This document shows positions 5,275 to 43,995 of a stretch of 46,001 nucleotides of DNA, in pieces. Position 1 is the stretch's first letter. Each line of letters starts with the position of its first letter. The translations under genes and the position numbers were made by a program. The notes beneath the pieces are model-generated. The model did not search any database, was not told where the DNA came from, and saw only the letters and a list, made by a program, of their open reading frames with translations. Origin of the DNA: a virus; the IMG/VR virus record IMGVR_UViG_3300013132_004731, positions 1-46,001 of that record; one strand, written 5' to 3'.

Positions 5275-5582
5275 TGTTATTTTTTCTAAAAGAAGATTAA
5301 ATTGATTAGCCACTTTCCTCTGCTCATACGGCTTAGTCCGGTGTTCATTTTTATTTATAAATAAATTAGATATTTAGCCAATCTATCGCCGATTGCTCGG
5401 TGTCCTCCCAATTCTAAAAGTCCTAAGACTACATAGAAAAATTAAGTCTAATAGATCGTTTATCAGCTTAGGGCCTTGGTTAGGCTTTTTGGGCCTTTTT
5501 GAATGTATTTCGGAGATATTCCCTCTGTCCACTCGTTCCTCGGCTTGTCACCTTCAATTTATTTAATATCTTTAATTTTAAA
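5275..5582 (-). ncRNA. Structured 3' region following the group I intron core
   Basis: These 308 bases have no convincing ORF on the minus strand. They are locally much richer in G and C than the neighbouring coding DNA. Possible hairpins read on the minus strand include CCGA-GCAA-TCGG (a GNRA tetraloop), AGACT...AGTCT and GCCT-aacca-AGGC. The stretch probably contains peripheral 3' domains (P9 extensions) and the 3' splice site of the intron, or a second RNA element after it. The 3' splice site could not be placed. Confidence 0.5.
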
Positions 5583-10026: not shown

Positions 10027-10036
10027 ATAAGGTAAA

Positions 10037-10042
10037 TTACAC
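10037..10042 (-). promoter_or_regulatory. GTGTAA late-promoter-like motif before the poly-Thr adhesin gene
   Basis: Reading the minus strand, GTGTAATTTACCTTAT precedes ATG 10026, with 10 nt between the hexamer and the ATG. This places the start at ATG and argues against the TTG at 10044. No -35 sequence is recognisable. Confidence 0.55.
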
Positions 10043-10092
10043 AACTATTCTTTTTTTTTAGAATAATCTTAAACTTATATATATTATAATAT

Positions 10093-15619: not shown

Positions 15620-16321
15620 ATGGTTGATATAGAGCTACACGGAATCTTAGCTGAAAAAATTAAAAAAAGCAAATGGAGCTTGGATGTAAAAAGTGTGAGC
15701 GAAGCAATTCGAGCAATAGAAATCAATTCTTCTTCATTGTATAAAACTTTATACGAATTAGATAAAGAAAATATTAAATACCGAGTTCTAATTAATAAAA
15801 AAGATTTTAAAGTTTTTAAGAATGAAAATGAAATAAGAAATGACTTTGATAAGGTTTTAAATTCAAATTTATTTACAAATTTTAATGAAGAAGATTTACA
15901 TAGTATTGATATCGTCCCTGTATTAGAAGGTTCATTTGGAGGTGGTGGATTCTTCCAAATTATACCAATTATTCTTGGTGTAGCACTTATTTTTACAGGA
16001 GTTGGAATAGCGGCTTCAGCGGGAGCATTTGGACTTTTAGCGACAACGCTTGTCATTGCTGGAATAGGACTTGCTGCAGTTGGCTTTCTATCGCTACTAT
16101 CTTCTCCTCCTCCGTTTATAGCTCCAGAATTTAATGCACCAGACGTAGCTGGACCAAAGGGTGGAGGAGGAAAATCATATTTATTTGATGGTCCAGTTAA
16201 TACTGCTGGAGAGGGTGGACCAATTCCAATTGGATATGGAAGATTAATTGTCGGATCGAAAACTATTAGCGCATCATACATTACTACTCATGTTCCAGCT
16301 GGATCTCCAAGGACTACTTAA
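15620..16321 (+). CDS. Tail assembly protein, lambda gpI-like
   Basis: I start at ATG 15620 (233 residues), not at the in-frame upstream codon at 15503 inside gpL. AAGGA at 15607-15611 gives a ribosome site, and the N-terminus IELHGILAEKI...SVSEAIRAIE then matches the ubiquitin-like gpI domain. Two hydrophobic Gly/Ala helices follow at about residues 108-155, then a Pro/Gly-rich end with SYLFDGPVNTAGEGG and IPIGYGRLIVGS, as in gpI homologues. gpI helps assemble the tail tip with gpK and gpJ. The TAA shares one base with the gpJ ATG. Confidence 0.9.
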   Translation: MVDIELHGILAEKIKKSKWSLDVKSVSEAIRAIEINSSSLYKTLYELDKENIKYRVLINKKDFKVFKNENEIRNDFDKVLNSNLFTNFNEEDLHSIDIVPVLEGSFGGGGFFQIIPIILGVALIFTGVGIAASAGAFGLLATTLVIAGIGLAAVGFLSLLSSPPPFIAPEFNAPDVAGPKGGGGKSYLFDGPVNTAGEGGPIPIGYGRLIVGSKTISASYITTHVPAGSPRTT

Positions 16322-19300
16322 TGAAAGAAAAAAATAAAAAATATTTTAAAATTTTAAAGGGTTCTGGAGGAGGAGGTGGGGGTCCACCACCATGTTATCC
16401 CGCTCCACCACCAGATCCACACACGCCAAAAGAAGCTGAAGAAGGAATTATAAAAGATGGAAAGAAACTATCAAGAACTGAAACAGAAGTAACGGATTTA
16501 ATATGCGAAGGCCCAATTGATGGTTTAGTAGAAGGATCATATAGATACGTTGGAAGAAATGGTAGAGTAGGATGGGATTCAGTTACTTTTACTCCTTATG
16601 AAGGTGGAGCAAGAAAATTTTTACGCTCTGTATATTGGAGGAACGTTCCTCTATTAGATGAAGGAGGAAATTTTAATTACAGTGACATAAACTTTAGGTA
16701 TGATAAAGGCGATCAAACTACAGCAACGAGCCTTGTAAGTGATCTAAGTGGTAATCCAACTCCTCAAGCTTCAAGAACATTATCTATAGGAGATATACTA
16801 AGATATAACCCGCCTGGTACAGAAGATTTTGCAAAAAATTATGATTTTAAAAGTACAAATATTAGCTCTTTAATAATATCAATAAAAATTGACGGATTAT
16901 TCGATCAGCAGAATGATCCAAATAAAGATAGACAAACTTTTAATTTAGGCTGCGGACAATCGGTAAAAATTTCACAAACTTTGGGAGATATAAGAGATCG
17001 ATCAATAAGTTTTACTTTTCAAATTTATAAACTAACTACTACTGGAAATGTTTTAGTAAGAAATATCAGTGCTTCTTCCTCGGGTAAAATTACATCTGGT
17101 TTTATAGATACATGGGAAGTTAATTTAAGTGGTTACTTTCAACCAGACGAAGAAAATCATTTAGGATGGAGAGTAAAAATAAGAAGAACATCAAAAGAAA
17201 GCACTACTCTTAATTTGAGAGATGCTTGCAGCGTACATGCTATAACAGAAATTTTTAGAGAACAATATATATATCCAAAAACAGCAATTTTTAAAAGTCT
17301 ATTTACAACTGAATATTTTGATGAAGTCCCACCAAGATCTTATGACGTAAAATTATTAAAAGTAAAAGTTCCTAGTAACTATGATCCTATTAAAAAAACT
17401 TATACAGGAGATTGGAATGGAACATTTAAATCTAATTTAGAATGGACAGATAATCCTGCTTGGTGTTATTATGATTTATTAACTAATAAACGATATGGTT
17501 TAGGAAAATATATTAAAGATGCAAATGTCGATAAATGGAATCTATATAGAATTGCTCAGTATTGTGATACAATAATATCAGATGGATACGGAGGATTAGA
17601 ACCAAGATTTACTTGCAATGCACTTATAAGTGATTTTGCAGATGCATTTAGCTTATTAAATGATATGGCTAGTATTTTTAGAGGGATGTCGTACTATGCA
17701 AATGGCTCAATTTTTGCAATAGCAGATATACCAAATGAGCCAATAGTATTATTTACAAATGCAAATGTAGAAAATGGAGATTTTAATTATTCTAGCAGTA
17801 GTAGAAAAGTAAGAAATACGGTTGCTGTCATTAGATATAATGACATGTCAAATTTTGCAAAACCTGTTGTAGAATATGTAGAAGATCCAGATGGAGTTAG
17901 AAAGCATGGAATTAGAAAATTAGAAATAACAGCTTTTGGTTGTACTAGTCAAGGTCAAGCATATCGTTTAGGAAGATGGGCTTTAGCTAGCGAACAGTTA
18001 GAGACAGAAACTGTAGATTTTACTGCTGGTCTAGAAGCTTTATATATAAAGCCTGGAGATATAATAAAAATTCAAGATCATAATCGTATTTTACATAGAC
18101 TAGCTGGCAGAATATTGAATATATCAATAGAAAATGGTCAACATACTTTTATTTTAGACGAAGAATTTTCAAAATTAAGTAGTTATTTCTCTAGTAACTA
18201 TCCTGGAAATGCATATAAATTAGAAATTTTAACTCCAACTTTTAGAACTACTGGAAATATGTATTCTGACTTTGTTAGTAGCTATAATAGAACAGAAATA
18301 CAATCTGGTGTATTTAATTTATCAAACCTATCTCCAATTACAGGGTATGACCCAGATAGAGTATTAACAAAAATTAATACCAATAAATTATTTGATACTA
18401 GCAATTATGTTTTACAGACAGGAACAATTTGGTCTATGCAAACTGCTGGAGGTAATTTTAATTTAAATGCTCAAACAGAATTATATAGAGTTATTGGTTT
18501 AAATGAAGTGGAGCCAAACAAATATAGCATAAACGCTATTGAGCATAATCCTAGTAAATATTTATTTGCTGAATCTGGTATTAGTTTTAGTGATGCGCCT
18601 ATAACTAATCCAATCGAAAATACAATATTAGAAGCTAGTTATCCAATAAGTTTATCTTTTTCTACATTTAATAATTTATATTTAAGATATACTATTAACA
18701 GAGCAACAACTACTACTAATTACTCTACTAAATTTTGGAAAGTATATGCAAAAGCTGGATCTAATTTTACAACAACTGAACTTAGTAGGCAATTAGTGAA
18801 TCAACAAGGCGTAACAGTTTTTGTTCCAAATGATTCTTTTCTTGTAGCTACTATAAGCGTAAGTAATGCAAATCAAAGTATTACTGAAGAATTTGTCCCA
18901 AGAGTAAATAACACAACATATTATTTTAGAGTATATGGGCTAAATGATAATGGATTCTATTCAAGAACATTTGCTCAAGGAACATATAGTTACAGTTCTC
19001 ATTTACTAAATGATTTTACAAATTTAATAGAATTAAATAGCTTTTCATATTCTACGACAGAACAAAGAACATCAACGGCTGTAAATTTAAATGGTCCGAA
19101 TCTTTTTCAAGGAAAATCTATTAATTATAGTTGGAGAATTAATAATTTAGCTTCTGCATTAAAAATTTGGACGTCGGATGATCTAGAATATAGGTTAAGA
19201 TTTGGAACAGGAACTTTTAATCAAAATACTGCTATTAGTAATACTTTAGGAATAAAAACTTTTAGTCAAAATGGTACTGAGTTTGAAAATTATACTGGTA

Positions 19301-20817
19301 TAGATTCAGCAGTGTTTAATGACGTATTAACTCATAAAAGTTTAAGTGGATTTTGGCTGGCAATAGATGCGAAAGAAAGAACAGGTAATAAATATACTTC
19401 TCAAGAATCATTATCTGCTTTACCATATAGTCAAAGTCATGGTTATCTAAAAGGTGATTTTTATAATTTACCACTGAATACGAGGGTTAATCTTAATAAC
19501 GCACAAGCTATAATTACAAGTTCAAACAACGTACAAATAAGTATTCCAGAGCAAGGAGGTGTCCCAGCAGATGTAGGAAGCACATTTATATTCTTTACAG
19601 ATAAAGCAAATAGCACGGGTTTTCTAAAAGATGTAGAAATAAATAAATTTTTATTTAAACAAACTCGATTCGATGGATATAATTTTGTAAATGACATGTA
19701 TAATAGTGGCATACAAATTAGAGAAGCATTTTATGATGGTTCTAGAGGATTTGCTACAAATGATGGTTTTACAAATACTAGCGCATCCGGAGCAATAATC
19801 AAAACAGGTTGGTTAGCGTTTAAAATGGCTACAAATTTTGAATCTATGTTGATTGATAGATATACTAAAGATTTTAGCGCTCCAAATAATACTACTTATT
19901 CATCTGGACCAGTAAATACTCCTACTGGAATTAACTTTGGAAGATATCCAGCTGGCGTAACTGAAACATATATATGGGATAATAGTGGCGATATGAGAAA
20001 TATTGCTAATAATTTATTATTCCTTTATCACCCATTCGCAAATCCTGTGCAAATCGGAAATGTTTTAGGAGGAGTTATAGACACTGGAGATTTAGACCGA
20101 GCAATAAAACAGACATTTAGAAGTTATAGTAATGGAGGATTTACTAATACTGGAGAATGGAGATTACAAGACGGAACGCTTAGATTACAAAATACGCAAC
20201 TTATTCTAAATAATGCCTCATATATGAATTTACGAGATACTGCTTACCTTAATGTAGGTGCAACAAATCAATCAGATACTAGTAGAATTTATTTAAACAA
20301 AACTTCAATTGAAGCACTTTTCCATACACATATTTCTTTTACTGATGGGATTTCCGGATTTAATCTAACTTTTCCAAATTATACTAGTGGGGGATTAGGT
20401 AACGGTTCAGTTAATGCGAATTCTTTTGCTCCAAGAATAAATATTACAAGTGGAACATTAGAAATGCGAAGTGGATTTATTGGTGTAGATGACATTAATA
20501 TTTTATTTTATAAAAAAAGCGGATTAACAATTCAAGGCGGAGTCGCTGGCGGATTAAGCGGAAAGACTTATGCTATGATTCGCGCATCTACTGGAAGTGG
20601 ATTACATATTTCTGGCAACTTAACAATAACTGGTGGAACAGGAGCATCTATAATTGCTCCAAGCGGATACTTGCACATGACTGGAAATTTAGGAATTTCT
20701 GGAACTACAGTAATTTCTGCTACTGCTGGAACTGCGACTTTGCCAACGAATCCTAGGGGATTTTTAAATGTTAATATAAATAACTCTGGATTTAAAGTTC
20801 CATATTATAATATATAA
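16321..20817 (+). CDS. Tail tip host-specificity protein, lambda gpJ-like central fibre
   Basis: The protein has 1498 residues. After a Gly/Pro-rich N-terminus the gpJ core is clear: TEVTDLICEGPIDGLVEG, DVKLLKVKVPSNYD, DNPAWCYYDLLTNKRYGLG and SIFAIADIPNEP, followed by fibronectin-like segments. The last 500 residues are variable, Ser/Thr/Asn/Gly-rich beta structure with repeats such as RLQDGTLRLQNTQLILNN, typical of a receptor-binding trimeric end. It forms the tail tip and central fibre and decides host range. It is the last gene of the M-L-I-J operon, and its TAA directly abuts the stop of the convergent gene at 20818. Confidence 0.93.
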   Translation: MKEKNKKYFKILKGSGGGGGGPPPCYPAPPPDPHTPKEAEEGIIKDGKKLSRTETEVTDLICEGPIDGLVEGSYRYVGRNGRVGWDSVTFTPYEGGARKFLRSVYWRNVPLLDEGGNFNYSDINFRYDKGDQTTATSLVSDLSGNPTPQASRTLSIGDILRYNPPGTEDFAKNYDFKSTNISSLIISIKIDGLFDQQNDPNKDRQTFNLGCGQSVKISQTLGDIRDRSISFTFQIYKLTTTGNVLVRNISASSSGKITSGFIDTWEVNLSGYFQPDEENHLGWRVKIRRTSKESTTLNLRDACSVHAITEIFREQYIYPKTAIFKSLFTTEYFDEVPPRSYDVKLLKVKVPSNYDPIKKTYTGDWNGTFKSNLEWTDNPAWCYYDLLTNKRYGLGKYIKDANVDKWNLYRIAQYCDTIISDGYGGLEPRFTCNALISDFADAFSLLNDMASIFRGMSYYANGSIFAIADIPNEPIVLFTNANVENGDFNYSSSSRKVRNTVAVIRYNDMSNFAKPVVEYVEDPDGVRKHGIRKLEITAFGCTSQGQAYRLGRWALASEQLETETVDFTAGLEALYIKPGDIIKIQDHNRILHRLAGRILNISIENGQHTFILDEEFSKLSSYFSSNYPGNAYKLEILTPTFRTTGNMYSDFVSSYNRTEIQSGVFNLSNLSPITGYDPDRVLTKINTNKLFDTSNYVLQTGTIWSMQTAGGNFNLNAQTELYRVIGLNEVEPNKYSINAIEHNPSKYLFAESGISFSDAPITNPIENTILEASYPISLSFSTFNNLYLRYTINRATTTTNYSTKFWKVYAKAGSNFTTTELSRQLVNQQGVTVFVPNDSFLVATISVSNANQSITEEFVPRVNNTTYYFRVYGLNDNGFYSRTFAQGTYSYSSHLLNDFTNLIELNSFSYSTTEQRTSTAVNLNGPNLFQGKSINYSWRINNLASALKIWTSDDLEYRLRFGTGTFNQNTAISNTLGIKTFSQNGTEFENYTGIDSAVFNDVLTHKSLSGFWLAIDAKERTGNKYTSQESLSALPYSQSHGYLKGDFYNLPLNTRVNLNNAQAIITSSNNVQISIPEQGGVPADVGSTFIFFTDKANSTGFLKDVEINKFLFKQTRFDGYNFVNDMYNSGIQIREAFYDGSRGFATNDGFTNTSASGAIIKTGWLAFKMATNFESMLIDRYTKDFSAPNNTTYSSGPVNTPTGINFGRYPAGVTETYIWDNSGDMRNIANNLLFLYHPFANPVQIGNVLGGVIDTGDLDRAIKQTFRSYSNGGFTNTGEWRLQDGTLRLQNTQLILNNASYMNLRDTAYLNVGATNQSDTSRIYLNKTSIEALFHTHISFTDGISGFNLTFPNYTSGGLGNGSVNANSFAPRINITSGTLEMRSGFIGVDDINILFYKKSGLTIQGGVAGGLSGKTYAMIRASTGSGLHISGNLTITGGTGASIIAPSGYLHMTGNLGISGTTVISATAGTATLPTNPRGFLNVNINNSGFKVPYYNI

Positions 20818-22803: not shown

Positions 22804-22815
22804 TTAATTATTCTA
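22804..22815 (-). other. Two in-frame stop codons splitting a glycosyltransferase gene
   Basis: The minus strand reads TAG AAT AAT TAA and then ATG, all in one frame, between the two halves of a GT9 domain. Without the stops the two ORFs would form one protein of about 1028 residues. Confidence 0.85.
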
Positions 22816-24735
22816 AAAGTTTTTAATGTCAAATTCAATTTTATCTTTTCCATTATGGAGATATGTAAGTACTTTCTGTGTTCCTACATATGGTATAAAG
22901 GCTATATCAAAATATCCTGGACTATATTTATTTCCCTCGCACCATATTTGATTTTCCATTTGAGGCATAAATGGTATTACTTTATCAACGTAAGGATTTC
23001 CATCTAGAACTTCAAAATATTCTGGTTTTGTAGCTACATATAACACATGGTTTGGATAATTCTTTTTTATAGAACTAAAAAGGCTTGTACTTAAAAATAC
23101 ATCATTTTCATCTTCTGGTATTACATATAATATTCTTCTGCCAGAATCATCTTTATTCAAGAAATCTTCAAATTTAATTTTTTTATTTTTTTGATTTTCT
23201 TGCCAAGCCACCTGTTTAAAATAGTTTTCTATGTCCTGTCTTTTCATCCCTTTAGATAATTCTTGCATCCAATATTTATGCCCATCATCATTTTCATCTA
23301 CATCTGGTCTTTTTAATATATTTGCATATAAACATTTTATCCACTCTGAGTTATCGTCTATATTTGGCACTTTAAAGAAAGGGTCTTGCTCTTCTGGTTC
23401 TATAGAAAAATTTTTATAATCTATAAATTCTGCATTATCTATAAACTCTTCAAATTTTTTTCCTATGATTTCTGAAGAATAATTATCTATAGTCCATTGT
23501 CTGGCGTTTTTACCCATTTCAATTCTTTTTTGAATTGGCATTTTCCATACTTTTTGTAATTGTTTTGCTATTGAATTTGGAGAGGTCGAAGCTTTTCTAA
23601 ACTCTGTTCCGTGTTCTCTATATTCTGCCCACTCCAATGGGAGCGAGAAAGCTTCTTCTTCGCACATTTCTTCGCCACATGAATAGTTCGTCACAAGAGT
23701 TATAAGCTCGGTTAACTTTGCTTCTTGAATTGGTATTTCTTGGCCACCACTAGTAAATGGATGACAATATACATCCATTATATTATATACTTCATTTAAT
23801 TGTTTTTCTGATACGCCTAAGCCAACGTTAGTTGTTATTTGGCCTTTTTCATTTTCACAAAATTTACATTTTATATCTTGGCCGATAAAATTTTTAACTT
23901 CATAATTTCCACAGGATTTACAAACGTAGGTCGTCAATATTTCATTCTTAGGGATGCCATATTCTTCGGCTAGTTTATAAATATTCCATCCTTCTCCCCA
24001 GTGAGTATGCAAAAGCAAAAATGTGTTTTTTACTTCTGGATTTCTATTCTTCCATAATGCATATCCTTCTAATAAATTAGGCACGCTTTTTCTCAATTGA
24101 TTTCTAAATACAAATCCAACAATAAATGCATTTAAAGGTATATTAAAATTTATTCTTAAATTTTTTCTTTTTTCAATATCTAATTTAAAAAAATTAGTAA
24201 CATCTAGTGGGCCGTGCATAGTTTTTACGTTCGAATGCCCAATGTCATTTAAAGCTTTTGTAGCAAAGTTACTCCATATCCAATAATTTTTCAACTTTGG
24301 AGCGCATTTAATTGCAGATGGTAATATTGGAAGTGAATCTAAAGTCGTCCATATACAGGAAGTTATTTTCTTAAACCATGGCTTATCTATGCTGTAATCT
24401 ACACCCCAAATATCTTGAACAGCTATATAAACATCTGGCTTTTCCTCTTGAATAACTTTATCAATGTTATATGCTCCATAACTAGCCATTCTAGATTGAT
24501 TAGGATCTTTATTGAGCTGCTCTATCTCCTGTGGTGAGGAAGGAAGTGACCCTATAGATTTCCAAGGGGTTTTTTGAAGTTCTGGATTATTTTCCTGCAT
24601 CCCACAACAATAGTGGGATATATCGTATTTATTAGTTTTATATAAATAAGTTAGAAGTGCCTTAGATACCCTACCAAAACCTGTTTTGGCTAAAGCAAAA
24701 TCAGAATGATATAATAATTTTTTTTTTCTAGACAT
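22813..24735 (-). CDS. Three-part glycosyltransferase: GT4-like, DUF4214, GT9 N-terminal half
   Basis: The protein has 640 residues. Residues 1-440 are a GT4-type glycosyltransferase (LLYHSDFALAKTGFGRVSKAL; IVGFVFRNQLRKSVPNLLEG; VYCHPFTSGGQEIPIQEAK). A zinc-ribbon insert with paired cysteines at 272/275 and 290/293 sits inside its C-terminal half. Residues 465-515 are a DUF4214 module (YANILKRPDVDEN...YWMQELSKG), often tied to surface or glycan proteins. Residues 535-640 are the N-terminal Rossmann half of a GT9 transferase (RRILYVIPEDENDVFLSTSL), truncated by the TAG at 22813-22815. It starts one base inside the stop of the upstream SSB-like gene. It probably builds a glycan on a phage or host target. 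Confidence 0.85.
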   Translation of the reverse strand: MSRKKKLLYHSDFALAKTGFGRVSKALLTYLYKTNKYDISHYCCGMQENNPELQKTPWKSIGSLPSSPQEIEQLNKDPNQSRMASYGAYNIDKVIQEEKPDVYIAVQDIWGVDYSIDKPWFKKITSCIWTTLDSLPILPSAIKCAPKLKNYWIWSNFATKALNDIGHSNVKTMHGPLDVTNFFKLDIEKRKNLRINFNIPLNAFIVGFVFRNQLRKSVPNLLEGYALWKNRNPEVKNTFLLLHTHWGEGWNIYKLAEEYGIPKNEILTTYVCKSCGNYEVKNFIGQDIKCKFCENEKGQITTNVGLGVSEKQLNEVYNIMDVYCHPFTSGGQEIPIQEAKLTELITLVTNYSCGEEMCEEEAFSLPLEWAEYREHGTEFRKASTSPNSIAKQLQKVWKMPIQKRIEMGKNARQWTIDNYSSEIIGKKFEEFIDNAEFIDYKNFSIEPEEQDPFFKVPNIDDNSEWIKCLYANILKRPDVDENDDGHKYWMQELSKGMKRQDIENYFKQVAWQENQKNKKIKFEDFLNKDDSGRRILYVIPEDENDVFLSTSLFSSIKKNYPNHVLYVATKPEYFEVLDGNPYVDKVIPFMPQMENQIWCEGNKYSPGYFDIAFIPYVGTQKVLTYLHNGKDKIEFDIKNF

Positions 24736-35380: not shown

Positions 35381-35702
35381 ATCTTATAAATTCTAGCAGG
35401 GTTTTAGGTTTTTGGCAAACATTTTTATCTTCACCAATTTTATTTTCTTTGATATTATATGTATTTTTATTTATTATTAATCTATTTTTTTTGTCTTCTA
35501 TATTTAAAAAAGCCTTGCCATCTTCTGTTAAAAACCAAGCTAAGCTAGGCAAATTTAAATCTTTTAAGGATTTCCAGTAAGTTAAAGTCTTATATTTTTT
35601 TATTAACTTTTGAGCTATTTTTATTTCTCTTGGCCAATTTGGTTTTGTTTTTATAAACTTTTTTACGATTAATTGGCATAATTTATGGTTTGTAATTTTC
35701 AA
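35364..35702 (-). CDS. Small basic protein between gmd and recA-like gene
   Basis: 112 residues from a TTG at 35702. There is no internal ATG in frame, and the TTG lies inside the end of the GDP-mannose dehydratase gene. The protein is Lys-rich with a helical N-terminal half (KLCQLIVKKFIKTKPNWPRE, SLKDLNLPSLAWFLTEDG). The WPRE...SLAWFL pattern looks like a small phage DNA-transaction protein, but I do not recognise the family. The position right before the recombinase, with a 17-nt overlap, suggests a recombination accessory (mediator-like) role, by context only. Confidence 0.65.
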   Translation of the reverse strand: MKITNHKLCQLIVKKFIKTKPNWPREIKIAQKLIKKYKTLTYWKSLKDLNLPSLAWFLTEDGKAFLNIEDKKNRLIINKNTYNIKENKIGEDKNVCQKPKTLLEFIRYGKKT

Positions 35703-36741
35703 TATCCCATTTTACCATTCTTTCAACCAGATTGTCAAAGGAATTTTCAGGTTTCCATCCTAATTCGACTCTAGCTTTTGACGAATCTCCTAGTAGAAGA
35801 TCTACTTCTGCTGGCCTATAAAAATTTGGATCGGTTTGTACTAATATTTTTGTTGCAATATTTCCATCTTTTAGTAAGTAATCTGGTAGAACATATAAAG
35901 TATTAACGCCTTCTCCCGTCCATATTCCGTCTTTTATATTAGCATATGAAAATGATTTTTCTACAAATTCTTTTATAGAGTGAGTTTCTTCGGAAGATAA
36001 AATATATTCCTTTGGCTTTTCTTGATTTAGCATAGTCCATATGCCTTTAACAAAATCTTCCGCGTGACTCCAATCTCTTTTAGATTCTAAATTTCCTAGT
36101 TTTATTGGTTCAAATGGTATTTTATTATCTATGGCATATTTAATTCTGGCTACTCCTTTTGTGATTTTTCTTGTGACAAATTCCTCTCCTCGCCTTTCGC
36201 TTTCATGGTTATAGAGTATACAGTGAATAGCATATAAATTATAAGACTCTCTAAATACTTTTGTTATATGTCTTGCTGACGCTTTCGCTGCTCCATATGG
36301 AGATCTTGGCTTTAATGGATGTTTTAAATCTTGCGGAGAATATTCTACATTGCCCATTTCCTCGCTAGAGCCAGCTGAATAAAATCTGCAAGATGGACAA
36401 TTTTTTCTTATAGCTTCCAAACATCTAAGAACGCCTAAAGCTGTTACATCAAAAGTCTGCTCTGGCATAATCCAGCTTGCTCCAACAAAAGATTGTGCGG
36501 CGAAATTAATGAAATAATCTGGTTGTATGTTTTTTACCATATTCTCTAAAGAAGATCCATCAGATAAATCTCCATAAATTAATTTAAAATTTGGATGATT
36601 TATTATTTTAATTAAATTTGAATAATTTGGATTAGACGATCTTCTTATCATCCCATATACTATATGACCCAAAGATAGGCAGTACTCCGCCATATAAGAT
36701 CCATCTTGACCGCTAACTCCTGTTATTATAATCTTTTTCAT
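35683..36741 (-). CDS. gmd: GDP-mannose 4,6-dehydratase
   Basis: The 352 residues match Gmd closely. The NADP-binding start is GVSGQDGSYMAEYCLSLGH (residues 8-26), the substrate-side motif IRRSS follows, the active-site region is AGSSEEMGN, and the Tyr-x-x-x-Lys is in YGAAKASA. It converts GDP-D-mannose to GDP-4-keto-6-deoxy-D-mannose, the shared precursor of fucose, colitose, rhamnose and perosamine. The two upstream genes encode the next two steps of a GDP-colitose route. Host GDP-mannose would be the starting material. Confidence 0.96.
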   Translation of the reverse strand: MKKIIITGVSGQDGSYMAEYCLSLGHIVYGMIRRSSNPNYSNLIKIINHPNFKLIYGDLSDGSSLENMVKNIQPDYFINFAAQSFVGASWIMPEQTFDVTALGVLRCLEAIRKNCPSCRFYSAGSSEEMGNVEYSPQDLKHPLKPRSPYGAAKASARHITKVFRESYNLYAIHCILYNHESERRGEEFVTRKITKGVARIKYAIDNKIPFEPIKLGNLESKRDWSHAEDFVKGIWTMLNQEKPKEYILSSEETHSIKEFVEKSFSYANIKDGIWTGEGVNTLYVLPDYLLKDGNIATKILVQTDPNFYRPAEVDLLLGDSSKARVELGWKPENSFDNLVERMVKWDIENYKP

Positions 36742-36742
36742 C

Positions 36743-37897
36743 TTAAAGATTATTGATATAATTCAACAATTTATCTAAATTATTTGAAGAGACTTTACTA
36801 TGTAGTCCAACATAAAAACCATTATTATTTAATACTTCACTATTTTTATAATGTTTATAGTTAGCGTATTTTTTAAAACAAGTTTGTCTTAAAAGATTAC
36901 CAGAGATAATTGGCCGTGTTTCGATGCCATTCTTTTTGCAAAAGTCTAAAGCTTTTATTTTATCTTTTTTGTTTTTACATATAACAGGAATGCAAAATGG
37001 AACATGAATTCTATTATCAAAATTTTTTGGTAAGGAGGCTCTTTGGGTATATTTATGTATATAATTATTATAAATATTAATTCTTTTATCTATATAAAAT
37101 TTTATTCTTTTAAAATCTAATAATCCTATCAACGCATTGATATTAGTATTCCTAAAGTTATTACCTAATAAATAGAAATCAAATCTTGAATCTACATTTT
37201 TATTTAAATACTTTTGATTATCTTTTACGCTTCTTGTCATTCCGTGGTTTCTTGCCATTAGAAAATAATCGTATTCTTTATCTGAATTAGTGAATATAAA
37301 TCCACCTTCTACGCTTTGCAGTTGGTGGCCAAAATAAGTACTTGTCGTGGAAGTAAAGAAAGAGCTCACGTTTTTATTTTTGAAAGAACCAAATGTATTT
37401 TCACAATTATCTAACATAAATTTTACTTTATATTTTTTTTCTAGATATATAATTTTGCCTATATCAGGAGTATAACCCAATAGACTTGTAATAAAAACAC
37501 ATGATATATTTTTAGATTTTTTAATTAATAAATCTTCTAATTTGTTCAAATCCATTGACCAATCCTCAAGATTAATATCAACAAAATTAGGAGTAAAGCC
37601 TTCTCTTATAAAAGGCGAAACGGAGGTAACCCATGTCGTAGATGGAAATACTATAATATTTTTGTTCTTCGAATATTGATTATCTTTAAGATACATAGCT
37701 AACAATGTATTTGCAAGAGAACCATTTGCGACAAATACTGCGTATTTTACTCCAACATATTCGGCCATTGTTTTTTCAAAAAGCGAAACCTGATCGCCCA
37801 TAGTCCACATATCTTTTTTCTTTAAGAAAAACTTACATATATTAAATTTATCTTTTAATGTAAAATTAGATTCGTTTAGATTCCACATGTTTTTCAT
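36743..37897 (-). CDS. colD: ColD-like PLP enzyme: GDP-4-keto-6-deoxymannose 3-dehydratase
   Basis: 384 residues of the DegT/DnrJ/EryC1 (aspartate aminotransferase-fold) family. ANGSLANTLLAMYL binds the cofactor phosphate, and Asp163 (MLDNCENTFG) holds the PLP ring nitrogen. At the Schiff-base position, where aminotransferases have Lys, the sequence is STYFGHQLQSVEGG, putting His191 five residues before the EGG. In the family, His here marks ColD, which removes the C3 hydroxyl instead of transferring an amino group. Neighbouring gmd and a GDP-fucose-synthase-like gene support ColD over the CDP-linked E1 enzymes. The product would be GDP-4-keto-3,6-dideoxymannose. It overlaps its neighbour by 32 nt. 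Confidence 0.82.
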   Translation of the reverse strand: MKNMWNLNESNFTLKDKFNICKFFLKKKDMWTMGDQVSLFEKTMAEYVGVKYAVFVANGSLANTLLAMYLKDNQYSKNKNIIVFPSTTWVTSVSPFIREGFTPNFVDINLEDWSMDLNKLEDLLIKKSKNISCVFITSLLGYTPDIGKIIYLEKKYKVKFMLDNCENTFGSFKNKNVSSFFTSTTSTYFGHQLQSVEGGFIFTNSDKEYDYFLMARNHGMTRSVKDNQKYLNKNVDSRFDFYLLGNNFRNTNINALIGLLDFKRIKFYIDKRINIYNNYIHKYTQRASLPKNFDNRIHVPFCIPVICKNKKDKIKALDFCKKNGIETRPIISGNLLRQTCFKKYANYKHYKNSEVLNNNGFYVGLHSKVSSNNLDKLLNYINNL

Positions 37898-38780
37898 AAG
37901 TTCTTTTTATTCCTTCATAGAGCGGGGTAAATTTAAATCCATTTAAAATACTAATTAATTTGGCTGACGAGGCATCTTTTCTATATTGACCATCTGGCTT
38001 TAATATATCCCATTGTATACTAATATTGTTTGCATTGCAAGCTCTTAGTGCTATTTCTGCTATTTCTTTTATGCTTTTAACTTCATCGGTGCATACATTG
38101 CAACTTTCGTTTATATTATTTTCAACAAAATTAAAAATAACTTTTGCTAAATCGTCTGCATACATAAATTGTCTTAAAGGCTTCCCTGTGCCCATTAGTT
38201 GTATATTTGTGTTATTATTTTTTGCATTATAAATTTTATTTAATAAACTAGATAAAAAATGAGCCTTATCGCCTTCAAAATGATCATATTCGGAATATAG
38301 ATTGCACGGAGTTAGATATGTATAATTTTTATTATATTGTTTATTATAAGCTTCAATTTGAACAGCCATACATCTTTTAGCATATCCATAAGCAAAATTT
38401 GTTTCCGTTGGTGGTCCTTTGTGTAAGAGGCTCTCGATCATTGGGTACTCATTGTCATCTACTTTATCTGGATAAATACATGTACTTAATATACCTATAA
38501 ATTGATTAACACTTACTTCATGTGCATATTTTAATACATTTGTATTAATCATAATATTTTCTTCAAAAAATTGAACGGGGTTTTTGATATTGTCCATAAT
38601 CCCACCAACTTTTGCTGCCAAATGAATTACTTTCTGTGGTCTAATATCATGCATTAATTCTAAGACTTCTTTTGGATTTTTTAAATTACAATCTTTACTA
38701 GATATAAAAATTCCATTTGGTAAATATTTGATTAGATGCTTGCCAACCATACTAGATCCGCCTGTTATTAAAATTTTCAT
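37866..38780 (-). CDS. GDP-colitose or GDP-fucose synthase (epimerase/reductase, SDR family)
   Basis: The 304 residues follow the GDP-fucose synthase/ColC layout. There is an N-terminal NAD(P) motif (ITGGSSMVGKHL), HLAAKVGGIMDN, STCIYPD with the active-site Ser/Thr region, the Tyr-x-x-x-Lys in AYGYAKR, TPCNLYSEYDHF, and GTGKPLRQFMYADDLAK. The family epimerises C5 (and C3) and reduces C4 of the 4-keto sugar. With a ColD-like gene next to it, the natural reading is ColC, giving GDP-L-colitose. By sequence alone it could equally be Fcl, giving GDP-L-fucose. It overlaps the GT10 gene by 4 nt. Confidence 0.88.
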   Translation of the reverse strand: MKILITGGSSMVGKHLIKYLPNGIFISSKDCNLKNPKEVLELMHDIRPQKVIHLAAKVGGIMDNIKNPVQFFEENIMINTNVLKYAHEVSVNQFIGILSTCIYPDKVDDNEYPMIESLLHKGPPTETNFAYGYAKRCMAVQIEAYNKQYNKNYTYLTPCNLYSEYDHFEGDKAHFLSSLLNKIYNAKNNNTNIQLMGTGKPLRQFMYADDLAKVIFNFVENNINESCNVCTDEVKSIKEIAEIALRACNANNISIQWDILKPDGQYRKDASSAKLISILNGFKFTPLYEGIKRTYEKHVESKRI

Positions 38781-39589
38781 ATGTTATTATATATAGTATT
38801 TTCTGCTAATAGATATTGCTTGGCTCTTGTAAAGTTTTCTATTATAGCTGGAATCCTTTTGGAATATTCATGATCACTTATATTATTTAATATTTCATCT
38901 AATTTATCTAAAGAATCAAATTGGATTATCCCATTGATATCAAAGAAATTGCCTATACTTGAGCATCCATAGTAAATCGGTATTGTGCCAGTCACGAAGC
39001 AGTCAATAAGTTTTTCTGTAAACCAAAAATTTTTTATACTATTTTCTATTACGATCTGAAACTTAAAATCTTTTAAAACTTCTATTTTTGATATTATTTG
39101 TTTATAACCATTTCCAAATAGTTCAAATTTATTTTTAAATCTTTCTATGCATTTCATTCTTAGGTTATGTCCAGTTAAAAAATTTTTATTAGAAGTTATC
39201 ATGCATATCATTCTGCTTTTTTCATAAATATTAAAATCTTTTTTATCAATCCAACAGCCTCCGTAAGGTATAAAAACAGAATTTGGTAATTTTAGAATAT
39301 CTTCATCGTGAGAATATATTTTATAGAATAGATTATAATTATTTTTCACATATGAATATTTTTCTGGACAAAGCTCTTGGGGTTCTATTAGCCATGCAAT
39401 ATCTTTTTTATTGTTTCTTCTGGATGCAGTTATAAAATTATCTGTATATATGATTATATCTTCATCAGTATAGTTATTTGATCGATCCCATTCGATCTTA
39501 TCACTAAATTGAATTGGGGGCATTGGGTTGTTGCTAAATATGCAATGAGAAAAGCTAGAATCTTTTATAAAAATTTTTTTCGGTATCAT
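38777..39589 (-). CDS. GT10-type (alpha-1,3-fucosyltransferase-like) glycosyltransferase
   Basis: The protein has 270 residues. The GT10 donor-binding motif is clear: FQIVIENSIKNFWFTEKLID followed by VTGTIPIYYGC. The acceptor-side N-terminal half contains IIYTDNFITASRRN and LIEPQELCPEKY. GT10 enzymes transfer L-fucose from GDP-fucose, and colitose, a 3-deoxy-fucose, is a plausible donor variant. It sits between the nucleotide-sugar genes and the carbamoyltransferase with 4-nt overlaps on both sides. No membrane segment is seen, so it is probably cytoplasmic. Confidence 0.85.
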   Translation of the reverse strand: MIPKKIFIKDSSFSHCIFSNNPMPPIQFSDKIEWDRSNNYTDEDIIIYTDNFITASRRNNKKDIAWLIEPQELCPEKYSYVKNNYNLFYKIYSHDEDILKLPNSVFIPYGGCWIDKKDFNIYEKSRMICMITSNKNFLTGHNLRMKCIERFKNKFELFGNGYKQIISKIEVLKDFKFQIVIENSIKNFWFTEKLIDCFVTGTIPIYYGCSSIGNFFDINGIIQFDSLDKLDEILNNISDHEYSKRIPAIIENFTRAKQYLLAENTIYNNI

Positions 39590-41163
39590 TTTGAAAATAG
39601 ATATCCTTTGACATAGACATGATCTAACTCTGTATTTTTTAGGACATATAAAGCGTCTTCTATTGAAGATAATATTGGCAATCCTTTAATATTAAAGGAC
39701 GTATTTAATATGATTGGTATTCCACCAAGATTTTGCATTGAATTTAAAATATTATAAAATATTTCATGATCTTTTTCTTTTACAGTTTGAAGCCTTGCCG
39801 TCCCATCAAAATGAGTTATGGAGGAAAGAGTTTTTCTATAATTTTCTTTGACGCTTGGGGCATAACTCATATATTTTGAATAGAATGCATTTTCAAAATA
39901 TATACTTTTATCTTTATCTCTACATACTGGCGCGAATGGTCTAAACCATTCTCTAAACTTTACTTTATGATTAAGAATATCTTTCATGTTATCTACGCAT
40001 GGATTACATATAATACTTCTATTGCCAAGGGCTCTTGGGCCTACTTCTGAACAATCATTAATTATACCTACAATTTTACCATCCAATATAATTTTAGCTA
40101 AATCATTAATTGACACTTCTTTGGCGTCAAATTCTTTTATATAATAATTTATTTTATTTGCATCTAAAATTTCTATTCCATTGTATGTAAGATCTTTTTC
40201 TATTTTTAATTCTGTAAAATATAAAAATTGGCCGAGGGCAAGCCCGCAATCATTTGGATTCGCAGGAACGAAAAGGTCTCGGTTGATTTCATTTAGTCTT
40301 TGTTTTAATTTTTGATTTAAGAGAACATTTAGCGCACATCCACCGACTAAGACTACATTCAAATTCGAAGAAAATATCTCCTCCCAAAATGTATTAAAAA
40401 ATATTTTTTCAAAAACATACTGGGATGTTGCTGCAAGATCATAACTTTGCTGTCCTTTTAAAAAATTGAAAGTTAGATCTAAATTTAAATCTCTCGATAG
40501 TTTATTTAAATCTTTGTGAAAGTAAAAATTTTCGATAGGTCTTACCCACTCATTAATGACTTTGCCGTATGCACATAAACCCATCACTTTTCCTGCATAT
40601 GCTAAAGATTGCAATTCGCTATCTGGCCCAGGTTTTATTTCAGCAATTGGACATCCTATCATCGCGTAAGGTGTTCCAAAATCTAAGTTGTAATTCTTGT
40701 GATTAAAAATTTTATTATTTTTACCAATAAAGGTTTTTGTAGATGTAGTATATTCAATTTCATTGCCCCCTCCATCAATAGATATTATCAATGCTTCGTC
40801 AAAGTTTGATGTATAGTATCCGCTGGCTGCATGGGCAGTATGATGCCCTACTTTAACTAAGGTAGCATTTTCAAATATGGTTTTTAAAAATAATAGATCT
40901 GTTTCTGATAGCTCATTATATATTAATGTATTTATTGAGTTCTTATCTATAAAAGTGCATATGTATTCTATAAATTTTTTTCTTAAAGTTTCATCCGTGC
41001 CTACGCCTTTTCTATGATCAAATCTGTCCGAATACATTGCATATCTTTGTTTTACAAATCTTTCGTATTCTAATATTTTAATATTATCATTTCGATCAAT
41101 AAAGACGGCTGATGCGTCATGAGATCCGTAAATGCTTAATATATTTTTTAAATTTTTATCCAT
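39586..41163 (-). CDS. O-carbamoyltransferase (NodU/TobZ/CmcH family)
   Basis: The protein has 525 residues. The N-terminal Kae1-like domain has SIYGSHDASAVFID, VGHHTAHAASGYYTS and IISIDGGGNE. The C-terminal YrdC-like carbamoyl-transfer domain has GCALNVLLNQK, GPRALGNRSIICNP and ILNTSFNIKGLP. The family moves a carbamoyl group from carbamoyl phosphate, through carbamoyl-AMP, to hydroxyls of sugars or antibiotics. In this operon the likely acceptor is a sugar of the phage-made glycan. The length is typical. It overlaps GT11 by 16 nt and GT10 by 4 nt. Confidence 0.93.
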   Translation of the reverse strand: MDKNLKNILSIYGSHDASAVFIDRNDNIKILEYERFVKQRYAMYSDRFDHRKGVGTDETLRKKFIEYICTFIDKNSINTLIYNELSETDLLFLKTIFENATLVKVGHHTAHAASGYYTSNFDEALIISIDGGGNEIEYTTSTKTFIGKNNKIFNHKNYNLDFGTPYAMIGCPIAEIKPGPDSELQSLAYAGKVMGLCAYGKVINEWVRPIENFYFHKDLNKLSRDLNLDLTFNFLKGQQSYDLAATSQYVFEKIFFNTFWEEIFSSNLNVVLVGGCALNVLLNQKLKQRLNEINRDLFVPANPNDCGLALGQFLYFTELKIEKDLTYNGIEILDANKINYYIKEFDAKEVSINDLAKIILDGKIVGIINDCSEVGPRALGNRSIICNPCVDNMKDILNHKVKFREWFRPFAPVCRDKDKSIYFENAFYSKYMSYAPSVKENYRKTLSSITHFDGTARLQTVKEKDHEIFYNILNSMQNLGGIPIILNTSFNIKGLPILSSIEDALYVLKNTELDHVYVKGYLFSK

Positions 41164-41927
41164 GACTGAGGTATTAAATCTCTTATTATAAAATCATTCC
41201 TATCTTTAAACCAATGATTGGGGGCTATAATTTTTTTATTATGATTTTGATTTAACCATGCTCCCCACCAGCTATAAGAACTATTTGCTATAATATTATT
41301 TTTGCACAAAGCCATTAAATATAGATCTTCTAGATCCGTATTTCCTTGTATTATGTTAAATTTTTTATCAGTAAAATTATTATAACAATAATTAAGATCA
41401 TCGCTAAAAACGAAAACTTTTTTTGAATCTAACAATTCAATTGCATCCATGTAGTATTTTATATCTAAATTATTATAAACATTGCTAAGAGATAGGTAAT
41501 TGCCTCTTCTCAGATGTATGCTGGTGATTTCTTCTTCAAATACTTCTGGATACCTTTTTTTAAGATTATCAAATATTCTACTATTAGAAAAAAAGCTATC
41601 TACTATTAGTTTCCTATTTTTTATAAAATATTTTTCACTTTGAAAATATCCATTAATAAAAATATTAGTATCTTTTGGTAAATCTATTTCACTAAAAGAA
41701 AAGTCTTTTTCTGTAAATTGAAAGAATCCATCTATGTTTGTTATTTCTTCATATTGCTTAAATATACTCTGTTTATATATTTTTGGATCAGTATGTAAAT
41801 AACCTATGTGATAATATCTTAAGCAGACTTTTAAATCGTATATAACAGATAAATTTATTGCATTTGCTAAAGAAAATAAAATGTTACCTAACCCGCCTTG
41901 CATTTGAAATGAGATTATTTTCTTCAT
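41148..41927 (-). CDS. GT11-type (alpha-1,2-fucosyl/colitosyl) glycosyltransferase
   Basis: The protein has 259 residues. GT11 motifs in order are FQMQGGLGNILFSLANAI at the N-terminus, SIHLRRGNYLSLSN (the HxRRG-Y GDP-binding block), KVFVFSDDLNYC and NSSYSWWGAWLN. GT11 members use GDP-fucose, and some O-antigen members are colitosyltransferases, which fits the ColD-like gene in the same operon. It starts within the stop of the GT25 gene (ATGA). Confidence 0.92.
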   Translation of the reverse strand: MKKIISFQMQGGLGNILFSLANAINLSVIYDLKVCLRYYHIGYLHTDPKIYKQSIFKQYEEITNIDGFFQFTEKDFSFSEIDLPKDTNIFINGYFQSEKYFIKNRKLIVDSFFSNSRIFDNLKKRYPEVFEEEITSIHLRRGNYLSLSNVYNNLDIKYYMDAIELLDSKKVFVFSDDLNYCYNNFTDKKFNIIQGNTDLEDLYLMALCKNNIIANSSYSWWGAWLNQNHNKKIIAPNHWFKDRNDFIIRDLIPQSWIKI

Positions 41928-42622
41928 GCTGAGAATTTGAATCTTTCAAAATTGCCTTTTATCCAATCTCTATAATCATAGAAATTATGTTCTATATCAG
42001 AAAAAGACGCGCTTTGTAAAAATAGCATTGGATTAGATATAAAACTGTTATAATTTCTTAATATTCTCTTGCTTAAAAAGACATCTATGGCTTCATTCTC
42101 GTTTATCCAATCGAATATTGAATTTGTGTCTGGTGCATTTTCTAAGAGAGTGTTGTATATTTTACAGTTAAACGCCAGAGCGTGCGTAGTATGGGACGAA
42201 TTTAATTTAAAAAGATTTTCTGAATATTTGGAGATAGGATTTATACCATAGCTATTATCTAAATTGCCTCCAAGATATAAAATATCCCAATCTTTTGGTA
42301 ATTCTTGTAAAGATTTGTTTAGGTTATTAACTGTTATTTTTTCATCAAAAAGTAGTTCAAAATCATCTTCTAGAACTAAATAATTAGATATATTTTTCTC
42401 TTTTGCATTTTTTAAAATTTTAAAATGAGACATGCAACAACCAGCTCTGCCTAAAAATTTTTTATATTTCTCATCGCTGTGATTAAATTTCACTGCTGGA
42501 AATCTTTCTATTTTATGTAGAATATTTAATTTATTAAAATTCTCTAAGCATTTTTCCCATCTATCTTTTCTTTCATCTAAATTTATACAAAAAATTTTTT
42601 CGAAGAAATCGAATGCATTCAC
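41924..42622 (-). CDS. GT25-type glycosyltransferase
   Basis: I start at GTG 42622 (232 residues). It overlaps the upstream stop as GTGA and brings the start close to the domain, unlike the TTG at 42640. GT25 motifs are FCINLDERKDRWEKC, GRAGCCMSHFKIL and YLVLEDDFELLFD (the Asp-rich donor site), then WDILYLGGNLD. GT25 enzymes transfer galactose or glucose to LPS core sugars or to proteins such as collagen. Both glycan and protein targets are therefore possible, and the acceptor is unknown. Confidence 0.88.
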   Translation of the reverse strand: MNAFDFFEKIFCINLDERKDRWEKCLENFNKLNILHKIERFPAVKFNHSDEKYKKFLGRAGCCMSHFKILKNAKEKNISNYLVLEDDFELLFDEKITVNNLNKSLQELPKDWDILYLGGNLDNSYGINPISKYSENLFKLNSSHTTHALAFNCKIYNTLLENAPDTNSIFDWINENEAIDVFLSKRILRNYNSFISNPMLFLQSASFSDIEHNFYDYRDWIKGNFERFKFSA

Positions 42623-43479
42623 TTTAATGCTTTTTCCCAAAATACTTCAGAAGCTTTGGAACAAGATTCTTTAAATGAATCTAGCCCATGTTTGTCCATA
42701 TCATGGATACATCCTACAATATTTGGATTAAAGCAAATCAACTTTGTTCCACAAATACACGCTTCCGCAACAGACCTACAAAATGGTTCTGGTAAAACTG
42801 GAGTATAATATAATGTTTCATATTTATTGTATAAATCTGGCATGGATTCATAAGTCACTGGTCCGAGAAATTCTACATTTTTACATGTAGAAGCTAAATG
42901 ATCAAATACTCTTGCGCCCCAACCAGCTATTACAAAATTAATATTAGGATTTGCTAATACAAATTCAAAAAAAGCCAAGGTACCCTTAAGTTCATGCATA
43001 AACCCAACATATAATATTTTATCTTCTCTTTCCAGCTGTTTATTATAAAAAGTTTTTGAATCTATAGGGTCTGGTACAATTTCAACATTTTTAAATATAT
43101 CTCCGTAATAATTTTTAAAAATTTCATAATGGAAATCTGTCAAAAAGAAAGTTTTTTTACAAGAATTAAATAGTAGTTGCCTGTCTTCTTTTGATAAATA
43201 TCTATTTAAATCATGCTCAAGTCTTACGTGATTTTTATGCTCACTTATCTTTTTTATAACTTCTTTATCAGATCTGTATATGGCTTCTAGATTAGAAGAC
43301 ACAAGAACGTCATAATCATTAAAATCTGTTACTTTAAAATTATAATTATAATTTGCTTCAAAAATAGAATGCCCTAACTCTCTACCTTTATTTATCAAAA
43401 GTTCATTGCTTCTTTGAGCCCCACCTATTGTATGATTTAGGTTAAAATCAGATATCCAAAGTATTTTTTTATTTTCCAT
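42619..43479 (-). CDS. GT4-type glycosyltransferase, first gene of the glycan operon
   Basis: The protein has 286 residues. The N-terminal half starts ILWISDFNLNHTIGGAQRS, and the C-terminal half has ILYVGFMHELKGTLAF, FVIAGWGARV and the donor-site ELP-type motif PVLPEPFCRSVAEAC. It is shorter than a full GT4 (usually 350-400), with a compact acceptor domain. Being first behind a TTGACT-17-TACAAT promoter, it leads a run of overlapping genes down to the RecA-like gene. Its ATG lies 5 nt after the -10 box, so its message is predicted to be leaderless. Confidence 0.88.
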   Translation of the reverse strand: MENKKILWISDFNLNHTIGGAQRSNELLINKGRELGHSIFEANYNYNFKVTDFNDYDVLVSSNLEAIYRSDKEVIKKISEHKNHVRLEHDLNRYLSKEDRQLLFNSCKKTFFLTDFHYEIFKNYYGDIFKNVEIVPDPIDSKTFYNKQLEREDKILYVGFMHELKGTLAFFEFVLANPNINFVIAGWGARVFDHLASTCKNVEFLGPVTYESMPDLYNKYETLYYTPVLPEPFCRSVAEACICGTKLICFNPNIVGCIHDMDKHGLDSFKESCSKASEVFWEKALK

Positions 43480-43484
43480 ACTAA

Positions 43485-43513
43485 ATTGTATGGTTTTTTT
43501 ATTATAAAGTCAA
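43485..43513 (-). promoter_or_regulatory. Sigma-70-type promoter predicted to give a leaderless transcript (glycan operon)
   Basis: TTGACT (43513-43508), a 17-bp spacer and TACAAT (43490-43485) on the minus strand, then 5 nt to ATG 43479. It is divergent from the ncRNA promoter 54 bp away. It could drive the whole run of overlapping genes down to 33819. Confidence 0.75.
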
Positions 43514-43566
43514 TTAAAATTAAGCTAAATTAACACCGATTTAATATATTTACATTATTTTTTTTA

Positions 43567-43595
43567 TTGACAAAAACACTTTATTTAGATACTAT
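43567..43595 (+). promoter_or_regulatory. Consensus-like sigma-70 promoter of the structured RNA / nrdA leader
   Basis: TTGACA (43567-43572), a 17-bp spacer and TACTAT (43590-43595). Transcription should start near 43602, about 390 nt before nrdA. This is the only promoter of this class in the window not set directly against a start codon. Confidence 0.85.
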
Positions 43596-43601
43596 GTATA
43601 G

Positions 43602-43882
43602 AACATACCGCCATATTTAGCGGATAAGGTTTGTCGTACTCCGAAAAACGATAAGTCTTATTAATCCATAACGTGGGCAACGCTATCGGAGCTTGCGACC
43701 CAGAAAACCACTTTTTAGTGGGTGTGTAGGTATAGGGCTAACACGCGAATGACAGTTCTACCGGTGTCTGATAAGTGTTAGGAGCCGAAAGGCTTTATAG
43801 ACTCAATTGGGAATTTGGATTAATAGGCTTTAACACCCTGAAAACAGGGAAAGCTCCGCTTTGAAGAGCTCATTGGGAATTT
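43602..43882 (+). ncRNA. Unrecognised highly structured RNA
   Basis: There is no ORF. The composition is richer in G and C than the surroundings, and many stems can be drawn: CCGC/GCGG (43608-43623), CTCCGA/TCGGAG (43639-43691), CCACT-tttt-AGTGG (43708-43721), CTAACAC/GTGTTAG (43738-43781), AGCC-GAAA-GGCT (43783-43794) and CCCTG-AAAA-CAGGG (43836-43849). GCAA (43677-43680) can pair with TTGC (43693-43696) across the second stem, giving a pseudoknot. ATTGGGAATTT occurs twice near the 3' end. I could not match it to tmRNA, RNase P, SRP, 6S, cobalamin riboswitch or a group I core. It is either a free ncRNA or a cis-acting leader of nrdA. Confidence 0.72.
43806..43882 (+). repeat. Direct repeat of ATTGGGAATTT in the structured RNA
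   Basis: Identical 11-mers lie at 43806-43816 and 43872-43882, each preceded by CTCA or GCTC. They bracket the CCCTG/CAGGG and AGCTC/GAGCT hairpins. They may be two copies of one binding site or two strands competing for the same partner. Confidence 0.8.
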
Positions 43883-43995
43883 AATTACAAAGATTATAAC
43901 ATACACCTGTTTATCTAAAAGATTAGTTATTAACATTTATTTGTAAAATTTTCTTTTATTTTTTAAAAAAAGACTGTAAACTCTTCTTTGGTCTT

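Follow-up and report, generated by a model that had tools for sequence, protein, structure and literature searches.

Can a phage make colitose, a rare 3,6-dideoxysugar of bacterial O-antigens, with genes of its own? The question is raised by a window of 46,001 bases from the virus record IMGVR_UViG_3300013132_004731 (IMG/VR), in which eight sugar genes form one minus-strand run, from 43479 down to 35683, with neighbours overlapping or about 1 base apart. The last three genes of the run encode a fucose synthase (Fcl)/ColC-type reductase, a ColD-like protein and a GDP-mannose 4,6-dehydratase (Gmd). With this trio the phage probably has a short pathway of its own that turns GDP-D-mannose of the host into GDP-L-colitose, whose sugar would then be transferred by the glycosyltransferases of the run. 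The original prediction had named three adjacent genes here as Gmd, a DegT-family enzyme and an epimerase/reductase, and we found open reading frames (ORFs) for all three, with Pfam matches above the cut-offs:

37866..38780, minus strand: Fcl/ColC-type epimerase-reductase, 304 aa (Epimerase, 160 bits)
36743..37897, minus strand: ColD-like protein, predicted GDP-4-keto-6-deoxymannose 3-dehydratase, 384 aa, with His191 (DegT_DnrJ_EryC1, 167 bits)
35683..36741, minus strand: Gmd, GDP-mannose 4,6-dehydratase, 352 aa (PF16363, GDP_Man_Dehyd, 358 bits, cut-off 27)

The reductase gene runs 32 bases into the ColD-like gene, its 3' end overlapping the 5' end of the latter. The trio is under purifying selection, with NG86 dN/dS of about 0.10–0.16 against a relative 73–80% identical, values that are rough because dS was near or above 1.

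From gene order, protein families, residues, predicted fold and conservation we infer the catalytic steps, the product and its use. Gmd would convert GDP-mannose to GDP-4-keto-6-deoxy-D-mannose. The ColD-like enzyme, with pyridoxamine 5'-phosphate (PMP) and His191 as catalytic base, would then remove the C3 hydroxyl, PMP being regenerated from glutamate and no iron-sulphur partner being needed. The Fcl/ColC-type enzyme would epimerise C5 and reduce C4 with NADPH, giving GDP-L-colitose. Transfer of colitose would fall to the GT11 and/or the GT10 glycosyltransferase of the same run, with carbamoylation as a likely further decoration. The host would have to supply the GDP-mannose, since no GDP-mannose synthesis family matched among the window ORFs scanned. 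Some GDP-L-fucose may be formed beside GDP-L-colitose, because the Gmd product is also the substrate of ordinary fucose synthase.

Identity of the ColD-like protein

The best PDB sequence match of the ColD-like protein was E. coli ColD (2gms, E 1.7e-39), followed by E1 (7e-25), PseC and perosamine synthase. Its AlphaFold2 model, built from an input of 58 window and locus sequences, had a mean pLDDT of 95.4, and the first nine Foldseek ranks were all ColD chains. By VIA-align the model was closest to ColD (Z 47.0, rmsd 2.4 over 371 residues), ahead of GDP-perosamine synthase (44.5) and E1 (44.1). The folds of this family are close, which weakens the case for ColD: with a Z gap of 2.5, the fold by itself does not tell ColD from perosamine synthase or E1. 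We therefore looked for discriminating residues.

His191 had been predicted to occupy the position of the PLP-lysine, and the alignments bear this out. In the phmmer alignment it stands opposite His188 of wild-type E. coli ColD, and likewise against ColD of E. coli O55, and in the multiple alignment the same column holds Lys in the Lys aminotransferases. The check proposed earlier, whether alignment of 36743–37897 would place a Lys or His191 at the Schiff-base position, thus gave His. The best ColD-type ORF had His at the Schiff-base position in 54/54 and 26/26 viral loci and in 80/80 bacterial loci, counted in the best 80 of 312 viral and the best 80 of 226 bacterial matches and including near-copies of the window. 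Conserved in every locus counted, His191 is not a chance substitution.

The same exchange had been called the hallmark of ColD. The His is present, but according to the available part of the review PMC8987622, the change from Lys to His is common to the 3-dehydratases ColD, E1 and SpnQ, and ColD is marked by having no iron-sulphur cluster. Because the exchange marks the whole class, further residues were needed. W88, E162, H215, R219 and R250 (numbered as in E. coli ColD) all occur in the window protein. They belong to a set of residues derived here by comparison and not from the literature: each is shared by 90% or more of the 55 phage ColD rows and of the 24 bacterial ones, and the 11 RfbH/E1-type rows all lack it. 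Six bacterial rows outside this count carry all five as well. Besides His191, eight tested residues match ColD, and five of the eight differ in the iron-sulphur E1/RfbH enzymes, so that at nine tested sites the window protein is identical to E. coli O55 ColD. The four columns of the iron-sulphur Cys residues of E1 hold Arg, Val, a gap and a gap in the window protein, and three of these columns are Cys in 10/10 RfbH-like rows.

In a tree of 106 rows, the 85 ColD-type rows formed one group (99 SH-aLRT), with the RfbH-like rows beside it and the Lys enzymes outside. Within the group, 55 phage and six bacterial rows (99) were sister to the other 24 bacterial ColD rows, E. coli O55 among them. This tree and that of the reductase were made by a quick method after near-duplicates and short ORFs had been dropped, and row counts are therefore not prevalence. 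The topology suggests that phage ColDs are an old lineage, sister to bacterial ColD, rather than a recent pick-up. The best 10 of 396 records in a plasmid search all had 26–28.5% identity.

Gmd and the reductase

Gmd is well supported by Pfam and by its best PDB match, Gmd 2z1m (E 1.3e-86), as an assignment predicted from these two sources and not as an NCBIfam equivalog. The next NCBIfam model after gmd was far behind, at 108.9 bits. S126, E127, Y149, K153 and the NHES-RRGE stretch, which we take to be catalytic, were common to the window Gmd and three other phage Gmds. Sequence, fold, residues and tree thus agree with the earlier naming of Gmd and ColD.

For the reductase, role and descent diverge. 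Its best solved relatives were GDP-fucose synthases, led by GDP-L-fucose synthase 4b8w (E 2.3e-63), and its identity was ~40% with human GDP-fucose synthase, against 32% with ColC and 30% with E. coli Fcl. Ser107, Cys109, Tyr136, Lys140 and His179 (E. coli Fcl numbers), presumably the catalytic set of reductase triad and Cys/His epimerase pair, are kept both in the window reductase and in E. coli O55 ColC. In a 114-row tree, with a midpoint root for drawing only, the reductase fell in a 51-row branch with human GDP-fucose synthase, apart from the 26-row branch of E. coli O55 ColC. The earlier name “ColC-like” therefore suits its role, with ColD adjoining and the five Fcl residues kept, but not its descent: the enzyme appears to be a ColC by context. 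Against the NCBIfam Fcl model (NF047922, cut-off 500), only E. coli Fcl passed (551), with E. coli O55 ColC at 304 and the window reductase at 193.

A Tyr at the His of an HDNF motif, read as Fcl His179 and common to ColC and the phage enzyme, was considered as a ColC signature and rejected. The true His179 lies later and is conserved, and ColD-free phages also have Tyr or His at the HDNF site, which does not discriminate.

Linkage of ColD, reductase and Gmd

Among the first 54 viral loci selected by ColD (47–100% identical), a Gmd-type gene was found in 34 and an Fcl-type gene in 24; for the other 26 viral loci the counts were 26 and 21, and for the 80 bacterial loci 72 and 78. Flanks extended over at most 8 kb and stopped early at contig ends in some loci, and weak short-chain dehydrogenase/reductase (SDR) matches were included.

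The reductase was used as query too, to avoid selecting loci by ColD. Alone it gave 19 viral loci, in 15 of which a His-type ColD lay no more than about one gene away. In three others (L177, L182, L190) Fcl lies directly before Gmd with no ColD between, and L187 is near a contig end. A ten-row reductase alignment gave 456 viral relatives; among the best 80, 71 had a His-type, non-RfbH ColD within 3 kb, a share that may lean upward, as seven of the ten query rows were themselves ColD-linked. After collapse at 95% identity, a ColD-type gene was within 3 kb in 57/66 reductase loci. The ColD residue pattern was present in all 71 linked loci, in one case on an incomplete ORF.

Nine of the 80 loci had no ColD within 3 kb, three of them near a contig end (L177, L210, L215). 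Six of the nine (L201, L210, L214, L237, L247, L255) carry an RfbH/E1-type gene, typed by residues, within 6 kb. Searches of the whole records of L177, L182 and L190 gave no ColD; the 30–31% matches elsewhere on the L182 and L190 records were RfbH/E1-type by residues, and no gene of that type was found on the 23-kb record of L177, where a contig end is close by.

On the reductase tree the ColD label needs at least six changes, a count that includes loci near contig ends, and well-supported branches force five for the ColD-free rows. This points to a pair of Gmd and reductase that ColD has joined and left, with about five or six changes in the phage branch. Such repeated change suggests that ColD, as a single gene, may switch phages between fucose and colitose. 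We give somewhat less than even odds to the reading that phages keep and spread an old ColD lineage of their own and insert it next to Gmd and a reductase of the fucose-synthase type, or drop it again, as such a switch; colitose would on this reading be common among viral glycans, its reductase recruited independently of bacterial ColC.

Some loci differed in composition. L100, L103, L120, L131 and L142 had ColD and Gmd with no Fcl-type gene in the stretch examined. In L100 a 118-aa gene with a weak DUF4254 match (20.4 bits, cut-off 27) lies between ColD and Gmd. RfbH-like second copies were seen in L091, L093, L096, L112/L113, L119, L123, L150 and L155/L156. In L091 the region 2033–6315, upstream of a reductase-ColD-Gmd trio, encodes an RfbH/E1-type dehydrase (452.7 against the NCBIfam cut-off of 423; best PDB match E1 3bcx, E 6.6e-99), a dTDP-glucose-4,6-dehydratase-like SDR and a further SDR. 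Two more L091 genes match halves of a thiamine-diphosphate enzyme (E1_dh, and Transket_pyr below cut-off). We take this extra set to resemble the pathways of branched-chain 3,6-dideoxysugars, e.g., yersiniose, and L091 possibly has two dideoxysugar pathways in one phage.

Comparison with known systems

E. coli O55 (CB9615) likewise has gmd, ColD, an Fcl-type reductase (ColC) and a GT11 in its O-antigen locus. Its ColC and ColD were identified by homology, the RefSeq names being fucose-synthase-family and aminotransferase. Unlike that locus, the phage has the three genes in the order reductase-ColD-Gmd, within a single run that precedes replication genes, with its ColD in a sister clade, a reductase that is not the ColC orthologue, and no GDP-mannose synthesis, wzx or wzy family match in the ORFs scanned. 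The GT11 enzymes of the window and of the O55 colitose locus share 31% identity; the latter is named fucosyltransferase in RefSeq, and we take it to be the colitosyltransferase WbgN.

The ColD-like protein matched 58 phage records in GenBank, 52 over at least 80% of its length. Synechococcus phages made up 49 of these 52, nearly all isolates of ACG-2014f and S-CAM7. The cultured cyanomyoviruses S-CAM7 (KU686212) and ACG-2014f (NC_026927), with records of 216 and 228 kb, have gmd, fcl, a ColD-like gene and GT11 in a row, GT11 directly after ColD. Their ColD is 32% identical to that of the window, and the S-CAM7 reductase belongs to a different branch. They are annotated as CDP-4-keto-6-deoxy-D-glucose-3-dehydrase and GDP-L-fucose synthetase, and as aminotransferase and nucleotide-sugar epimerase; these annotations miss colitose.

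Phage pathways for fucose and rhamnose have been described (PMC9602691, PMC12911398, in the parts available). The GDP-L-fucose module of cyanophage S-SCSM1 resembles the window in having Gmd, Fcl, fucosyltransferases and a carbamoyltransferase, but unlike the window run it comes with no mention of ColD in the accessible part of PMC9602691. The fucose-type modules of L177, L182 and L190 likewise have Gmd and Fcl as in the window, but no ColD between them. For phage-made colitose, no paper was found in the open literature, a search with most subscription papers outside its reach. The earlier statement that no characterised phage makes this sugar thus holds biochemically, as far as found, but the trio itself is already in GenBank cyanophages and is frequent in IMG/VR.

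Possible transfer and use of the sugar

The run reads GT4-like, GT25, GT11, NodU-type carbamoyltransferase, GT10, Fcl/ColC-type, ColD-like and Gmd. Its first five genes are:

42619..43479, minus strand: GT4-like glycosyltransferase, 286 aa, which opens the run (PF00534, 33.7 bits)
41924..42640, minus strand: GT25 glycosyltransferase, 238 aa (PF01755, 39.7 bits)
41148..41927, minus strand: GT11 glycosyltransferase, 259 aa (PF01531, 71.9 bits)
39586..41163, minus strand: NodU/Nol-type carbamoyltransferase, 525 aa (PF16861, 192.7 bits; PF02543, 75 bits; phrog_1601)
38777..39589, minus strand: GT10 (fucosyltransferase family) glycosyltransferase, 270 aa (PF00852, 34.2 bits, cut-off 23.9)

In all eight proteins there was a single borderline transmembrane-like stretch, in the carbamoyltransferase. 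No GtrA, membrane-transferase, flippase (wzx) or O-antigen polymerase (wzy) family matched in a Pfam scan of 28 window ORFs. Gtr-type seroconversion cassettes of temperate phages change the host glycan. A changed host glycan is a possible outcome of the window run too, but unlike those cassettes it has no GtrA or membrane-transferase match and almost no membrane segments. Because the run is nearly without membrane stretches, transfer in the cytoplasm onto a soluble acceptor is likelier than a Gtr-type O-antigen change. The most likely use may thus be cytoplasmic glycosylation of a phage product, e.g., a virion protein, with a change of the host surface glycan ranked after it; both suggestions are tentative.

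Alternative explanations

Several points weigh against a colitose pathway. The ColD-like protein is only 28% identical to E. coli ColD, the window Gmd scored 366 bits with the NCBIfam gmd model, below its cut-off of 415, and the reductase is not orthologous to ColC of E. coli O55. GT10 and GT11 are classically fucosyltransferase families. Reductase relatives up to 61% identical lie directly before Gmd with no ColD between and presumably make fucose. Besides the possible upward lean of the 71/80 share, a control with E. coli Fcl as query, in which ColD was called from the His motif alone, gave 22 viral loci: a His-type ColD immediately adjoins the reductase in eight, and 13 have none (L261 has an ORF with an odd His motif ~2.7 kb away). 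Linkage to ColD is thus neither special to the reductase branch of the window nor universal among viral reductases. The module is also not always complete, as some ColD phages have no Fcl-type gene even on long records: L100 has one SDR match only, the Gmd, on a record of 75 kb, and no Gmd was found on the records of L104 (141 kb) and L107 (120 kb).

A trio of this kind could make another GDP-3,6-dideoxyhexose, if the reductase worked without C5 inversion or gave another C4 configuration. Its place outside the ColC branch would fit, as would the several ColD phages with no Fcl-type gene on record, in which another enzyme, perhaps of the host, must finish the sugar. We nevertheless regard it as unlikely, as the window reductase keeps Cys109 and His179 (E. 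coli Fcl numbers), presumably the residues of epimerisation. Slightly less likely again is that the working product is GDP-L-fucose, made by Gmd and Fcl for GT10 and GT11, with the ColD-like protein minor or differently used. Among solved structures the reductase is closest to GDP-fucose synthases, in related phages Fcl immediately precedes Gmd with no ColD and with RecA-like and DnaB genes following, and the two transferase families are in the run; against this, ColD is under purifying selection, its tested active-site residues are kept across phages, and it is near the reductase in 71 of the best 80 loci (of 456).

Two other identities for the DegT-type protein were rejected, and we give each a very small chance. 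GDP-perosamine synthase acts on the same substrate, the Gmd product, and has the same fold (VIA Z 44.5), which speaks for a perosamine-synthase-like aminotransferase, but in the window and in every phage ColD row examined the Schiff-base position holds His and not Lys. ColD also lacked transferase activity under conditions where SpnQ shows it, according to the available part of PMC8987622. As for an RfbH/E1-type CDP-sugar 3-dehydrase, with iron-sulphur cluster and reductase partner, RfbH was the best NCBIfam model by score (131 bits) and the S-CAM7 copy is annotated so. That score is far under the cut-off of 423, which E. coli ColD itself misses with 263 bits; the iron-sulphur Cys residues are absent and the ColD-only residues present; and the adjoining dehydratase is Gmd, not a CDP-glucose dehydratase. 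A route to GDP-L-colitose remains the reading that we prefer.

Other features of the window

Downstream of the sugar run, on the same strand, lie a 112-aa gene and a RecA-like gene. The stretch from ~25 to 35 kb holds a DNA polymerase, exonucleases, a primase, ThyX, DnaB and a UvsX/RecA-like gene. The phage relatives of the DNA polymerase were distant only, all below 60% identity. A lambda-type tail module includes a J-like protein (16321–20817) and its neighbours. A 66.9-kb contig (G001/L003), whose trio translations are identical to those of the window, continues the genome on the left side, where it carries tail genes and encodes a tape measure protein.

About 500 bases (43480–43990) with no long ORF separate the sugar run from an open frame that runs to the end of the window. 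No Rfam match was found there at E 0.1, and part of this stretch may be a structured RNA. The open frame resembles, by eye only, the large subunit of ribonucleotide reductase. Away from the sugar run, between tail and polymerase genes, another glycosyltransferase gene with a DUF4214 match was found (22813–24735, minus strand). A group I intron (5593–5853, minus strand; RF00028, 73.3 bits) begins at the 3' end of ORF 5842–10044 (1400 aa), which has a weak lectin-like Laminin_G_3 match near its C terminus, below cut-off; the gene may continue past the intron.

Significance

The trio is not unique to the window: many phages carry the same gene set under other annotations. If our reading is true, many phages would make a rare O-antigen sugar with genes annotated as aminotransferase, CDP-sugar dehydrase and fucose synthase, and surveys of phage glycans would read colitose as fucose. 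The glycans of related phages should then differ by one deoxygenation according to whether ColD stands beside Gmd and the reductase, and comparing such phages would test directly which purpose phage sugar pathways serve.

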